64,000 nucleotides of DNA, taken from NCBI RefSeq assembly GCF_000182745.2, contig NC_016027.1:2455001-2519000 (forward strand), in the 5' to 3' direction. A program made the translations under genes and the position numbers. Below are positions 2,509 to 19,525 of this stretch, piece by piece; positions within the stretch are counted from its first letter, which is position 1; each line of letters begins with the position of its first letter. Origin of the DNA: Komagataeibacter medellinensis NBRC 3288. Its GTDB lineage: Bacteria > Pseudomonadota > Alphaproteobacteria > Acetobacterales > Acetobacteraceae. The notes under the pieces were generated by a model, which ran no database searches, was not told the origin of the DNA, and worked only from the letters and a program-made list of their open reading frames with translations.

Positions 2509-2582
2509 CGCGGGGTGGAGCAGCCCGGTAGCTCGTCAGGCTCATAACCTGAAGGCCGCAGGTTCAAATCCTGCCCCCGCAA
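2509..2582 (+). tRNA. Initiator tRNA-fMet (CAT)
   Basis: A cloverleaf of 74 bases up to the discriminator A. It shows the initiator hallmarks: a C1-A72 mismatch at the top of the acceptor stem, and CTCATAA in the anticodon loop. The T-arm GGTTCAAATCC is intact. The encoded CCA tail is absent here: the discriminator A at 2582 is followed by TAC. The same 3' end followed by CCA occurs at 17887-17904. This shows that an element has inserted exactly at the end of the tRNA body, so the CCA must now be added by tRNA nucleotidyltransferase. Confidence 0.96.
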
Positions 2583-4230
2583 TACCCGATACCGACACTC
2601 CCGTGAGCATCGCTCCGGGAGTGTTCGCGTTTGCGGCTCCCTGGCCACGTGAGGCCGCGAAATCCAGCAGTTTTCCAAGTTCGCCATGGAGCGTGACGTG
2701 CATCTCGCCCCGACCCTTGCCGGGATGAAGCACGATCTTCTCGATCAGCGCGCGGATGGCCTCTGAGGCTTCCTGCCGGTCCTCGGGATGGTTCAGCGTC
2801 TCGGCCAGCCGCTCGACCTTGTGCTTGAAGATGCCTGCGACATTGGGATGAATGTCCGGTACGTCCTGGGGCTGGGCGACGAGCAGGGCGACCAGTTCAT
2901 CCTCACGGGCCTCCATTTCGCGCATCCGCTCGACCATGCCACGTGTGTAACCGCCATCCTCGATGACCTGGAGCATCTGTTTCAGCCCCTTGCGCAGCCT
3001 GGTCAGTTCCGTCTGCCAGCCGGCTGTGCTGGCGCGGCGCTCATGGTTGGTGCGATTGGTTTCCTCCACATAGGCGCGCATGGCCTCCGCCGCCGCTTCC
3101 GGCGTCATCAGACGGTCCTTGAGACCCGACAGCACCCGGTCTTCCAGTTCCGGGCGGCGGATCGTGGTCCTGTTGGTGCAGGAGCGGTTGTCCATGTGGG
3201 TGGAGCATGCGAAGCGGTCGCCGCCCCGGATCGAGCAGGGGCCGCCGCACACGCCACAGAACACCAGACCCGAGAGCAGGGATTTCGGGCGGCGCTGGCC
3301 ATTCAGCTTGTTGATCGAGGCGCGGATACCCGCGCTGATGTTCACGCTCTTCTCCGCGATCAGCGCCTGCCGGTCGCGTACCGCCTGCCAGAGATCATCG
3401 TCCATGATCCGTAGATTCGGAACTTCGGTGACGATCCACTCCGATTGTGGATTCAGTCGGGACACACGCTTGCCCGTCTGCGGGTCTTTCAGATAGCGCA
3501 GGCGGTTCCAGACCAGCCGTCCGATGTAAAGTTCGTTGTTTACAATACCGGTGCCACGCAGGGCATTGCCCCGCAGGGTGGTGTTGTTCCACTTACCGCC
3601 CTTGGGGCCGGGGATACCTTCGTCGTTCAGACGGCTGGCGATGGAAAGCGCGCTGCGCCCGGAAGCGAATTCCCGGAAGATGCGGCGGACGATTTCCGCC
3701 TGTGCGTCGTCGATCTCGCGGTCGCCCCGGATCAGTTCGCCCCGTCCGTCCATCTGATGCACGACGCGATAGCCGTAGCAGATCCCGCCGCCGGATTTGC
3801 CCGCCTCGACCCGGCCACGCAGGCCGCGATGGGTCTTCATCGCCAAGTCCTTGAGGAACAGGGCGTTCATGGTGCCTTTGAGGCCGACGTGAAGCTCACT
3901 GATCTCACCTTCCGCCAGGGTGACGATGGTCACCCCCGCGAATTGCAGGCGCTTGAACAGGGTGGCGACGTCGGCCTGGTCGCGGGACACGCGGTCCAGC
4001 GCCTCGGCCAGCACGACATCGAACTGCCCGGCCTGAGCATCGCGGAGCAGGGTCTGGATGCCGGGACGCAGGATCATGCTGGCCCCGGAGATGGCCGCGT
4101 CGCGGTAGTACTCCACCACCTGCCACCCCTCGCGCGTGGCGCGCTCTTCACAGAGACGGAACTGGTCCTCGATCGAGGCCGCCCGCTGGTTGTCCGAGGA
4201 ATAGCGGGCATAGAGCGCGACACGGGTCAT
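2542..4230 (-). CDS. Large serine recombinase of element 1
   Basis: 562 aa site-specific recombinase predicted to integrate and excise element 1. The N-terminal resolvase domain opens with YARYSSDNQ, which holds the nucleophilic serine (residue 10 or 11), followed by SRDQADVATLFKRL. A Recombinase domain spans about residues 150-300. The zinc ribbon runs CGVCGG...CST...C near residues 325-350, and a C-terminal coiled region follows. The start has a good AAGGAAG site. The last residues, AGAGFEPAAFRL, are encoded antisense to the tRNA-fMet T-arm and anticodon arm, so the C-terminus depends on what lies beyond the att core. Paralogous to the recombinase at 17849-19525. Confidence 0.93.
   Translation of the reverse strand: MTRVALYARYSSDNQRAASIEDQFRLCEERATREGWQVVEYYRDAAISGASMILRPGIQTLLRDAQAGQFDVVLAEALDRVSRDQADVATLFKRLQFAGVTIVTLAEGEISELHVGLKGTMNALFLKDLAMKTHRGLRGRVEAGKSGGGICYGYRVVHQMDGRGELIRGDREIDDAQAEIVRRIFREFASGRSALSIASRLNDEGIPGPKGGKWNNTTLRGNALRGTGIVNNELYIGRLVWNRLRYLKDPQTGKRVSRLNPQSEWIVTEVPNLRIMDDDLWQAVRDRQALIAEKSVNISAGIRASINKLNGQRRPKSLLSGLVFCGVCGGPCSIRGGDRFACSTHMDNRSCTNRTTIRRPELEDRVLSGLKDRLMTPEAAAEAMRAYVEETNRTNHERRASTAGWQTELTRLRKGLKQMLQVIEDGGYTRGMVERMREMEAREDELVALLVAQPQDVPDIHPNVAGIFKHKVERLAETLNHPEDRQEASEAIRALIEKIVLHPGKGRGEMHVTLHGELGKLLDFAASRGQGAANANTPGAMLTGVSVSGIAGAGFEPAAFRL
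2568..2582. other. attL core of element 1, inside the tRNA-fMet 3' end
   Basis: The 15-base core ATCCTGCCCCCGCAA is repeated exactly at 17887-17901. At the left copy it completes the tRNA T-stem and acceptor stem; at the right copy it is followed by the CCA that the left copy lacks. Recombination between the two would release 15,319 bp and restore a tRNA with an encoded CCA. The serine recombinase gene on the minus strand reads through this core. Confidence 0.88.
2586..2600. repeat. Left arm of the attP inverted repeat
   Basis: CCGATACCGACACTC, three bases inside the left core, is the exact reverse complement of GAGTGTCGGTATCGG at 17868-17882 just outside the right core. When element 1 is circular the two arms flank the core as a near-palindrome. 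This is the usual form of a serine-recombinase attP, with one recombinase dimer binding each half. Confidence 0.8.
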
Positions 4231-4265
4231 GACCTTACTTCCTTATCCTTGCCAGTTTTCCACAG

Positions 4266-17726: not shown

Positions 17727-17848
17727 GCGGTCTGTCAAATGATAAAGATAAAATAGGACTAAATTTTAACGCAGACTAATGGCCTTTCGGTTTTTTTGCG
17801 AACGGTGCAAGTAAAAATCAGAACTCGTTGTTGCATAAATCGTAAATA

Positions 17849-19525
17849 TCAGATGGCGATTTCTAGCGAGTGTCGGTATCGGTTAGATCCTGCCCCCGCA
17901 ACCAATGAATCCTGTTCAATGAACGACTGAAGAACGCCATGGTCCGGATGGACTGCGGCGCTTTTTTTGTTGGAGGAGAAGTTCAGGATAGCCGCGAGGT
18001 CTCCTTCGAGGAAGATAGCAAGCTCGCCATCCTGCGGAATCAGTTTGATCCGTGAGACCAGAGCGCGCAGTCTCTCGACCGCCTCAAGACTCGCGTCCTC
18101 CTTCTGAAGGTTTTCGTACAGGGCCTCGATGCGTTCCTTGTAGATTACAGCCATGTTCGGATGCAGGAGAGGCGGCGGCGGGGGTGCATCGGCAAGCAGA
18201 GCCGTCAGTTCTTCCTTGCGGGCCTCCAGCCTTCCGATCTTGTCCTTCAACTTGACGCCGGGTACGCCGTCGAGAATGGCCTGGATCGCCTTATCAAGCT
18301 CACGATCCACCCGCGGCAACTCGGCACGCATCGCGGCGAGATCTGCGCCTCGCTCCATTCTCACGCGGTTCACTTCCCGGGTGAATTCATCACAGAACTC
18401 CTTGAACAGCGCAGGGTCCATGAGGCGCGTCCGTAGCCCGTTAAGCACAGACTTCTCGAGCACGTCGCGGCGAATGGTCATGCGATTGTCGCATGTGCCC
18501 TTGTTGCGCGCCGTCGAACAGCCGAGCAGAGTTTTCGAGATCATTGAAAAGCCACCGCCACAGCAGCCGCAACGTGTCATCGCAGTGAAGAGGTGACGAG
18601 GGCGCTTGAGGCTGTTCAGAGGATGGACACCATCACCACGTGTCTTTTGCGACCACGTTGTTGTTGCCTGACGAACCTTGGCAGCTTCCCACAGGTCAGG
18701 CTCGACAATTCGAAGTTCGGGAACCTCCTGCAGGATCCATTCACTTTCTGGATTCAGGCGCGAGACGCGTTTTCCAGTTTCCGGATCCTTCAGATAGCGA
18801 AGGCGGTTCCAGATCAGCCGGCCGATATAAAGCTCGTTGTTGAGGATGCCGGTGCCGCGGTCACGGTTCCCGTGGATGGTAGAAGGCCCCCAGGCGCCAC
18901 CCAACGGTCCGACGATTCCTTCGGCATTGAGATCGAGCGCGATCGCCCTTGGCGCCTTGCCGTCCGCATATTCACGGAATATGCGCCGCACGATCGCGGC
19001 TTCGCCGACATTGATCGTCCGCTCTCCGCGTACAGCTTCCCCGGCAGCATCGAATTTTCGTACGACATCGTATCCATAGCACAGACCGCCGCCGGACTTG
19101 CCGGATTCGACGCGTCCCCGTAGGCCACGCCGCGTTTTATCCGCCAGATCCTGCAGAAAGAGGGCATTCATGGTGCCCTTCAGGCCGACGTGGAGTTGGG
19201 TGACGTCGCCCTCCGAAAGCGTGATGATCCGCACCCCGGCAAACTTCATTCTCTTGAACAGCCCGGCGATATCTTCCTGGTCGCGTGAAAGACGGTCCAT
19301 GGCTTCGGCGAGAATGATCGAAAACTTCCCACGTTGCGCGTCCTGCATCAGTTCCTGAATGCCAGGACGAAGCAGGGAGGCACCAGAGACGGCTCTGTCA
19401 CTATAGCTGTCGACGACGTTCCAGTCCTGACGGGCCGCATACTCGCGGCACAGCCTCAGTTGATCCTCAATGGAGGCATCGCGCTGGTTGTCGGAAGAAT
19501 AACGGGCGTAGAGCGCGACCTTCAT
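17849..19525 (-). CDS. Large serine recombinase of element 2
   Basis: 558 aa. Starts MKVALYARYSSDNQRDAS with the catalytic serine at residue 10 or 11, then SRDQEDIAGLFKRM, the Recombinase domain (residues 150-290) and a zinc ribbon CGCCGG...CST...C near residue 320. It is closely related to the recombinase at 2542-4230 along its whole length but differs at many positions. The start has an AGGAGG site. Its last residues, AGAGSNRYRHSLEIAI, are encoded by the right end of element 1. If element 1 left, the tail would become AGAGFEPAAFRL as in recombinase 1. Confidence 0.93.
   Translation of the reverse strand: MKVALYARYSSDNQRDASIEDQLRLCREYAARQDWNVVDSYSDRAVSGASLLRPGIQELMQDAQRGKFSIILAEAMDRLSRDQEDIAGLFKRMKFAGVRIITLSEGDVTQLHVGLKGTMNALFLQDLADKTRRGLRGRVESGKSGGGLCYGYDVVRKFDAAGEAVRGERTINVGEAAIVRRIFREYADGKAPRAIALDLNAEGIVGPLGGAWGPSTIHGNRDRGTGILNNELYIGRLIWNRLRYLKDPETGKRVSRLNPESEWILQEVPELRIVEPDLWEAAKVRQATTTWSQKTRGDGVHPLNSLKRPRHLFTAMTRCGCCGGGFSMISKTLLGCSTARNKGTCDNRMTIRRDVLEKSVLNGLRTRLMDPALFKEFCDEFTREVNRVRMERGADLAAMRAELPRVDRELDKAIQAILDGVPGVKLKDKIGRLEARKEELTALLADAPPPPPLLHPNMAVIYKERIEALYENLQKEDASLEAVERLRALVSRIKLIPQDGELAIFLEGDLAAILNFSSNKKSAAVHPDHGVLQSFIEQDSLVAGAGSNRYRHSLEIAI
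17868..17882. repeat. Right arm of the attP inverted repeat of element 1
   Basis: GAGTGTCGGTATCGG, the exact reverse complement of the arm at 2586-2600. It lies four bases before the right att core. The arm is read antisense as the tail RYRHS of the second recombinase. Confidence 0.8.
17887..17901. other. attM: junction core between element 1 and element 2
   Basis: Second copy of ATCCTGCCCCCGCAA, here followed by CCA, the original tRNA 3' tail. It is at once the right end of element 1 and the left end of element 2. The recombinase of element 2 reads through it on the minus strand exactly as recombinase 1 reads through the left core. I saw no third copy in the rest of the window, so the right end of element 2 is outside or diverged. 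Confidence 0.85.

Follow-up and report, generated by a model that had tools for sequence, protein, structure and literature searches.

Two serine integrase elements behind an initiator tRNA gene

In the 64,000-bp stretch of the Komagataeibacter medellinensis NBRC 3288 genome analyzed here (the window, G000:C3:2455001-2519000; genome of 3.5 Mb in 8 contigs), a gene for initiator tRNA (tRNA-fMet) is followed directly by two mobile elements in a row, each with its own large serine recombinase (Int1 and Int2), and the subject of this study is the 3' ends of these integrase genes and the attachment (att) sites lying inside them. A 15-bp core, ATCCTGCCCCCGCAA, is present in exactly two perfect copies in the window, at the 3' end of tRNA-fMet (2568-2582) and at 17887-17901, as the first-pass annotation of this DNA had described. 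Four further core-like matches in the window show three mismatches each, where shuffled DNA averages 3.15 matches at up to three mismatches, and the whole genome holds six exact copies, namely these two and four at other tRNA-Met(CAT) genes. Domain search confirmed that a large serine recombinase open reading frame (ORF) reads through each core (2542-4230 and 17849-19525, both on the minus strand), and it also proved correct that the second core carries the CCA tail missing from the first: CCA is found at 17902-17904, but none after 2582, where TAC replaces the encoded CCA. Elsewhere in the genome, tRNA-fMet occurs in four intact copies, after which 91-105 bp of DNA, including a terminator-like inverted repeat, are identical. 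This sequence is gone at the window tRNA-fMet, which joins element 1 directly.

Element 1 extends over 15.3 kb between the CCs at 2574 and 17893 and has the gene content of an integrative and mobilizable element (IME), with an integrase and a relaxase and no type IV secretion system (T4SS) family among the 14 of its ORFs scanned against Pfam, the remaining ORFs lying outside that scan. Element 2 starts at 17893 and is a 100.7-kb integrative and conjugative element (ICE) with relaxase, coupling protein, T4SS, integrase and two att ends, the far one at window-coordinate 118570 (G000:C3:2573570), beyond the window, where CCCCCGCAACCA recurs. A far end inside the window was ruled out, all other approximate cores there having three mismatches. 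Int1 and Int2 both consist of a Resolvase N-domain, a Recombinase domain and a zinc ribbon, are 52% identical and are the sole proteins of the genome that match PF07508; the relaxases of the two elements are 43% identical over 444 positions. To the right of 118570, a stretch of 179 bp matches the 3' end of a third integrase type at 87-89% identity (L074, L075, L077, L085, and L086 matching best, L numbers designating loci of the comparison), so that a third element is represented by an integrase gene remnant only. The earlier description of two stacked elements, which contained neither the ICE far end nor this remnant, holds insofar as the two are separate, have their own integrases and are a relaxase element with no T4SS gene among the ORFs scanned and a full ICE, respectively; the order that it derived from the CCA is not proven thereby (see below).

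The integrase genes read through the core

Among 121 distinct integrase genes (those of the window and L048-L167), a core-like string is found near the 3' end in 92, and in 90 of these, including both genes of the window, it is read in the same frame and before the stop codon. The two exceptions, L136 and L163, are probably chance core matches. Behind the core, 61 of the 90 tails are a peptide read antisense from the tRNA (GFEPAAFRL and variants; three of them cut by a contig end or reading past the usual stop), while 29 tails have another sequence, among them L105, ending RFE. In the window, the stop codon TGA of the inserted-form tail faces U33-C34-A35 of the anticodon loop. When the element ends are joined in silico, the tail of Int1 is predicted to end in ...SNRYRHSLEIAI and that of Int2 in ...CNQRKLLLVSGFVERLAA, whereas Int2 as found bears the tail of element 1. 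From this we infer that the integrase C-terminus changes with the integration state: it would be the antisense-tRNA peptide in the inserted element, with the stop codon taken from the anticodon loop, the peptide of the element's own right end in the circle and the peptide of the neighbor in a stack, where the neighbor would overwrite the tail.

Loci with tandem cores also keep the frame. From 14 core-to-core distances at 13 loci, those of L105 (225) and L146 (24) were dropped as likely chance matches, leaving 12 distances at 11 loci, of which 11 are multiples of three, and cores 51-87 bp apart stay in frame; at the exception, L109 (115), tRNA sequence and a stop codon already follow the first core. 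The 51-87-bp core-to-core units in frame with int (L055, L092, L098, L123, L125, L126, L128, L141, L161, and L073) seemingly consist of just two arms and are perhaps elements shrunk to their ends. The same core string is also read through by distant serine integrases from IMG/VR (L260, L266, L267, and L272), which are 33.5-38.4% identical to the third type.

Codon-level selection on the right-end tail

The right-end arm of an element, termed P1 for element 1 and P2 for element 2, is most naturally translated as an integrase end read across the core, and selection on its codons therefore points to the circular or the stacked form. Such selection was seen in three of the four arm families tested (P1, type A and P2). 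Of the P1 arms, 14 were listed after dropping the duplicate L239 and 13 are in frame; the test set comprised the 12 with a visible stop codon plus L083. These 12 do not differ in tail length (L241 is truncated). Throughout, the tails end in I or V, three different stop codons are in use, the third codon positions vary most and the motif RYR-H/Q-S/T-L/I is kept. For the 13 sequences, P values of 0.0003 over codons 8-14 and 0.016 over the whole tail were obtained. The type A arms (9 sequences) gave P = 0.022 over 31 codons and 0.017 over codons 9-30, and the P2 arms (7 distinct sequences) P = 0.008 over the whole tail and 0.005 over the last 12 codons. In the comparison of the window with L098 over 20 codons, 11 nucleotide changes are synonymous (two of them in the stop codon) and one is nonsynonymous, with only 21 of 60 positions identical past the stop codon. 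We regard a state-dependent, selected tail as likely. The idea that type A arms are the ends of one common ICE was rejected, as they have only about 90-200 bp in common.

Regarding the structure, residues 529-562 of the integrase model have pLDDT values below 50, corresponding to an unstructured tail in a model that is modest as a whole (mean 68). Of 29 tails not derived from tRNA (28 plus the P2 arm of the window), 21 end in A, V or I, eight in AA and six in LAA; a recount with L105 added and four antisense tails dropped gave 18 of 26, six and four, respectively, in about 12 arm families. By comparison, A, V or I is the last residue in 26% of 58 readings in other frames and at 19% of positions drawn at random, and AA is found in 1 of 58 and 1.4%, respectively. 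The tmRNA tag of the host is ANDNSEVLAVAA. Tails ending in QLAA or HLAA were considered as independent evidence of a degradation tag and rejected, because those of L128, L148, L150, and L161 lie antisense over a convergent integrase gene and the family has no codon-phase signal.

Hairpin in the last int codons

At 68 of the 90 left junctions, the strand complementary to the last int codons bears a hairpin followed by a T run; the rate is 34 of 360 in control stretches from these genes and 8 of 90 when the opposite strand is read. As listed, its sequence varies by lineage while its position is much the same. Element 2 passes the terminator rule applied, whereas element 1 fails, with the hairpin present but the T tract poor. 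We read the hairpin, which faces transcription from the rRNA operon, as a putative stand-in for the displaced operon terminator; located inside the element's own integrase gene, it hints at a way for an element to live with a strong rRNA-operon promoter in front of it.

Attachment sites, order of arrival and predicted excision

In circles constructed in silico, both complete elements show a dyad around the same CC (TG[CC]CCCGCAA), with 19 of 26 positions matching in attP1 (reached by 0 of 20,000 shuffles) and 18 of 26 in attP2 (1 of 20,000 shuffles). In the predicted circle of element 1, the core is flanked by an 18-bp inverted repeat (2583-2600 and 17868-17885, 94% identity). Crossed pairings are weaker, with 8 of 26 for the junction as found (P1|P2', the prime marking the left arm) and 11 of 26 for the outer pairing (P2|P1'). 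The predicted sites have the short dyad attP with a central dinucleotide of large serine recombinases, and the locus is a tRNA accretion array, with several elements in one orientation at one core and one tRNA. All three cores (2574, 17893, and 118570) have the same CC in the same orientation; as CC is not its own reverse complement, this may explain the single orientation of the elements.

That the CCA shows element 1 to have inserted second, as claimed at first pass, does not follow, since insertion of element 1 into the tRNA-side junction of element 2 results in the same sequence as insertion of element 2 into the far junction of element 1. The junctions themselves differ, however, in what they retain of the target: at the tRNA-side junction of a resident the entire tRNA half is preserved, at the far junction only six contiguous bp left of the CC (ATCCTG). 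Moreover, the tRNA-side junction mostly restores CCCGCAACCA, with ACCA found there in 78 of 90 elements; among the 12 elements without it, ten, element 1 included, begin with ATACCC. Because the left junction of a resident restores the tRNA part of the target, an array would grow at its tRNA side, each element entering by serine-integrase recombination at the CC, most likely always adjoining the tRNA. The most likely order of arrival would then be the third element, now the remnant, followed by the ICE and finally element 1, so that the order given earlier is the likelier one, and the decayed state of the most distal element fits growth at the tRNA side. The reverse history, with element 1 first and the ICE entering its far junction, accounts for the final sequence equally well but would have had to use a site with just those six bp of tRNA, which makes it unlikely.

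The junction P1|P2' would be the left end of element 2 deprived of its tRNA half, so that element 1 should have to leave before element 2; stepwise excision with element 1 first is predicted from the layout of the sites. Movement of both elements as one composite via the outer sites at 2574 and 118570 could invoke the CC and the orientation common to all three cores, but these outer sites would join P2 to P1' with 11 dyad matches compared to the 19 and 18 of the true pairs, and related partners are found apart and in reversed order. We regard composite movement as very improbable.

Partners and stacks in related genomes

A match to Int1 at E ≤ 0.001 was present in 119 of 195 related genomes, and at least 80 named loci were fetched, with titles nearly all from Alphaproteobacteria, Mesorhizobium among them. 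Pattern search for element-1-type right ends covered three named genomes (1 match), the 195 relatives (6 genomes), 397 family members (10 genomes) and IMG/VR (1 contig), sets that overlap; in the wider class, only 1 of 385 genomes, i.e., that of the window itself, had a P1-type right end with a pattern that also required CCA. From the 15 distinct ends found, seven directly abut another serine integrase gene (window, L226, L227, L228, L237, L239, and L241), while the other eight show no integrase match in about 1.5 kb beyond. In genome G018, an ICE2-type right end (93% over 581 bp) is followed, after a 60-bp core-to-core unit, by an element-1-type integrase (95%); the tRNA of this array lies off the contig. 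The search for single occupants of the tRNA proposed at first pass thus did not find the two segments to be one fixed block, given the eight ends without an adjoining integrase and the reversed order in G018. As read from these arrays, neither the pairing nor the order of the elements is fixed among the relatives.

The clean case in genome G043 comprises three stacked elements in the order tRNA - A - B - C, of 84.5, 60.2, and 22.4 kb, between tRNA-fMet and a terminator-like sequence without integrase; its element-1-type member (94%) is the distal one, and the reading joins both ends of the single contig of this genome. A seven-element G043 array was dropped, as the cores at assembled positions 174063 and 281119 precede terminator-like sequence without integrase. 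Near 82788 and 142369 of G043:C1, two more cores with integrases were seen with no tRNA-fMet leftward in the stretch read; the rRNA-operon ends beside them may have been lost.

Elsewhere, convergent serine integrase genes are arranged around one core or end to end (L128, L148, L150, L161, and G010:C52:19096-22425), and these elements may carry an integrase at both ends. At L062, L063, L066, and L086, about 40 bp from the 3' part of tRNA-fMet come after the core, and foreign DNA comes next; the insertion sites are possibly displaced tRNA fragments belonging to a different kind of element.

Gene content of the two elements

The features of the window are compiled in the table. In element 1, an Abi_C-domain gene (13900-14586) sits between hsdS and hsdR of the type I restriction-modification system. 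On element 2, a weak Clp-protease match below the Pfam cut-off was noted at 52663-53511, which is perhaps of interest if integrase tails act as proteolysis signals. Past the window, element 2 encodes efflux, TonB, acyl-CoA dehydrogenase and other cargo genes as well as an IS110-type transposase.

Table. Features of the tRNA-fMet locus and of the two elements, in window coordinates.
Feature	Position	Strand	Remark
tRNA-fMet (CAT)	2508-2583	+	closes rRNA operon copy; insertion target; encoded CCA lost here
Int1, large serine recombinase	2542-4230	-	last codons and stop are antisense tRNA
Core copy 1	2568-2582	+	inferred crossover CC at 2574-2575
P' arm of element 1	2583-2600	+	pairs with 17868-17885
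Hairpin facing transcription from tRNA, weak T tract	2595-2632	+	failed terminator rule used
PemK-like (weak, below cut-off)/Phd-like toxin-antitoxin pair	4266-4955	-	Pfam
Na+/H+ exchanger	5484-6854	+	
DUF2840 protein	6922-7401	+	
Element 1 relaxase with DUF3363	8166-10277	+	
Type I restriction-modification genes hsdM, hsdS, Abi_C gene, hsdR	11066-17726	+	
Element 1 right-end stretch	17849-17892	-	predicted to encode circular-form tail of Int1; as found, tail of Int2
Int2, large serine recombinase carrying element 1's tail	17849-19525	-	
P arm of element 1	17868-17885	+	
Core copy 2, hybrid junction P1|P2'	17887-17901	+	inferred crossover CC at 17893-17894
Terminator-like hairpin and T run in int2 3' codons (antisense)	17935-17968	+	
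Coupling protein, TraG/VirD4 type	22254-24278	+	
trb-type T4SS genes (T2SSE ATPase, TrbE, TrbL, VirB8, CagX, TrbI)	25954-35206	+	
AbiEii toxin (44888-45883) and neighbor (44131-44931, no Pfam match)	44131-45883	-	
Strawberry-notch-type helicase	46369-50250	+	
RPA-type replication initiator	57207-58124	+	
Element 2 relaxase with DUF3363	61371-63242	+	

Discussion

The account that we favor, at a probability of roughly 0.7, is that of a stack growing at its tRNA side by recombination at a shared CC, from which element 1 would leave first, with integrase genes carrying a state-dependent, selected tail and an antisense hairpin. Several observations weigh against it. The stretch of codons 8-14 in the P1 tails was picked after inspection, and the permutation tests ignore shared ancestry. 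One of the 14 P1 arms (L236) is out of frame. Pairwise comparison of the window with L055 gives four synonymous and two nonsynonymous changes with 50 of 60 positions identical past the stop codon, that of L055 with L098 eight and four, respectively. The reading of the tail as a degradation tag, in particular, is weak: the tails of L128, L148, L150, and L161 must be dropped, two of them being among the six LAA ends, the family of HQLAA/HHLAA ends (8 sequences) shows no excess of third-position changes (P = 0.63), and three of the four IMG/VR tails end otherwise than in A, V or I (L260, L266, and L272; L267 ends in A). Finally, the order of arrival is left unfixed by sequence.

The tails could also be neutral, with ordinary accretion at a tRNA gene and an open frame through the core arising as a by-product of the attP position. 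Stacking of elements at tRNA genes is indeed common, the tail is modeled at low confidence, and its length and sequence vary; yet three of the four arm families tested show selection at the codon level, 90 of 92 genes keep one frame and the tandem cores lie in frame, all of which makes neutrality rather doubtful. If the tail is functional, it would, with moderate confidence, report the insertion state and tune the integrase, for which there are two readings. It might act on recombination itself, i.e., on synapsis, DNA contact or partner binding, and not via degradation, a possibility that we take seriously while holding it at somewhat less than even odds. The conserved RYR-H/Q-S/T-L/I of the P1 tails would suit such a role, as would myxophage Mx8, where integration alters the int 3' end and the site preference, as described in a review (PMC6070905); on the other hand, the tails often end in small nonpolar residues like degradation tags, with the host tmRNA tag ANDNSEVLAVAA for comparison. 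The other reading is that the tail would act as a ClpX-type degradation tag. This is a guess, suggested by the A, V, I or LAA ends and the tmRNA tag, as in BPs phages. Tentatively, and with the chances leaning against the full scheme, tRNA-fMet serine integrases may sense the insertion state by their C-terminus: the circle would give a selected, probably destabilizing tail and insertion the antisense initiator-tRNA peptide, whereas the newcomer in a stack would retag the integrase of the resident, locking it by a split att site plus an altered integrase.

Serine integrases are central tools, and the directional control of native ones is still an active question. The elements at tRNA-fMet may provide a natural set in which the recombination that moves an element also edits the tail of its enzyme and neighbors edit each other's; the state-dependent tail would be a possible built-in sensor of the inserted versus the free element, and the layout of a stack directly predicts which element can leave and when.

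In the literature, which was searched in part, we found no account of an att core inside int for serine integrases of ICEs or IMEs, none of integrase tails rewritten by a stacked neighbor, and nothing on a serine integrase or recombinase at tRNA-fMet or on an initiator-tRNA attachment site. The closest parallels are found in phages. BPs-type mycobacteriophages (clusters G, I, N, and P) have attP within the reading frame of the repressor, whose C-terminus is altered by integration; in the unintegrated phage the repressor is marked with an ssrA-like tag, and a C-terminal proteolysis signal has been ascribed to the BPs integrase as well (PMC4557955; PMC9934374), the cluster P integrase being described as tyrosine-type (PMC9635641). 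As read from the sequence, the present system shares with these phages an attP inside a gene and a product that would differ by state, but here attP lies in int of an ICE or IME, a serine integrase gene, and not in a repressor gene, and a tag is only suggested. In Mx8, attP likewise lies within int, and integration creates a new int 3' end and changes specificity (PMC6070905); that is one phage, whereas the integrase genes considered here come from many Alphaproteobacteria and have tails set by the tRNA or by a neighbor. Tandem ICE/IME arrays at tRNA genes resemble the present rows in the common core and the exchange of partners, but island integration at tRNA genes is described for Islander as catalyzed by tyrosine integrases (PMC4383910), whereas those found here are of the serine type. 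For the ICEs and IMEs of Mesorhizobium, a genus that also occurs among our relatives, the description consulted gives no sites for serine elements and no att core inside int. Stacking at tRNA genes is ordinary, and genes altered by an att core within them are already known from Mx8 int and the BPs-type repressors.

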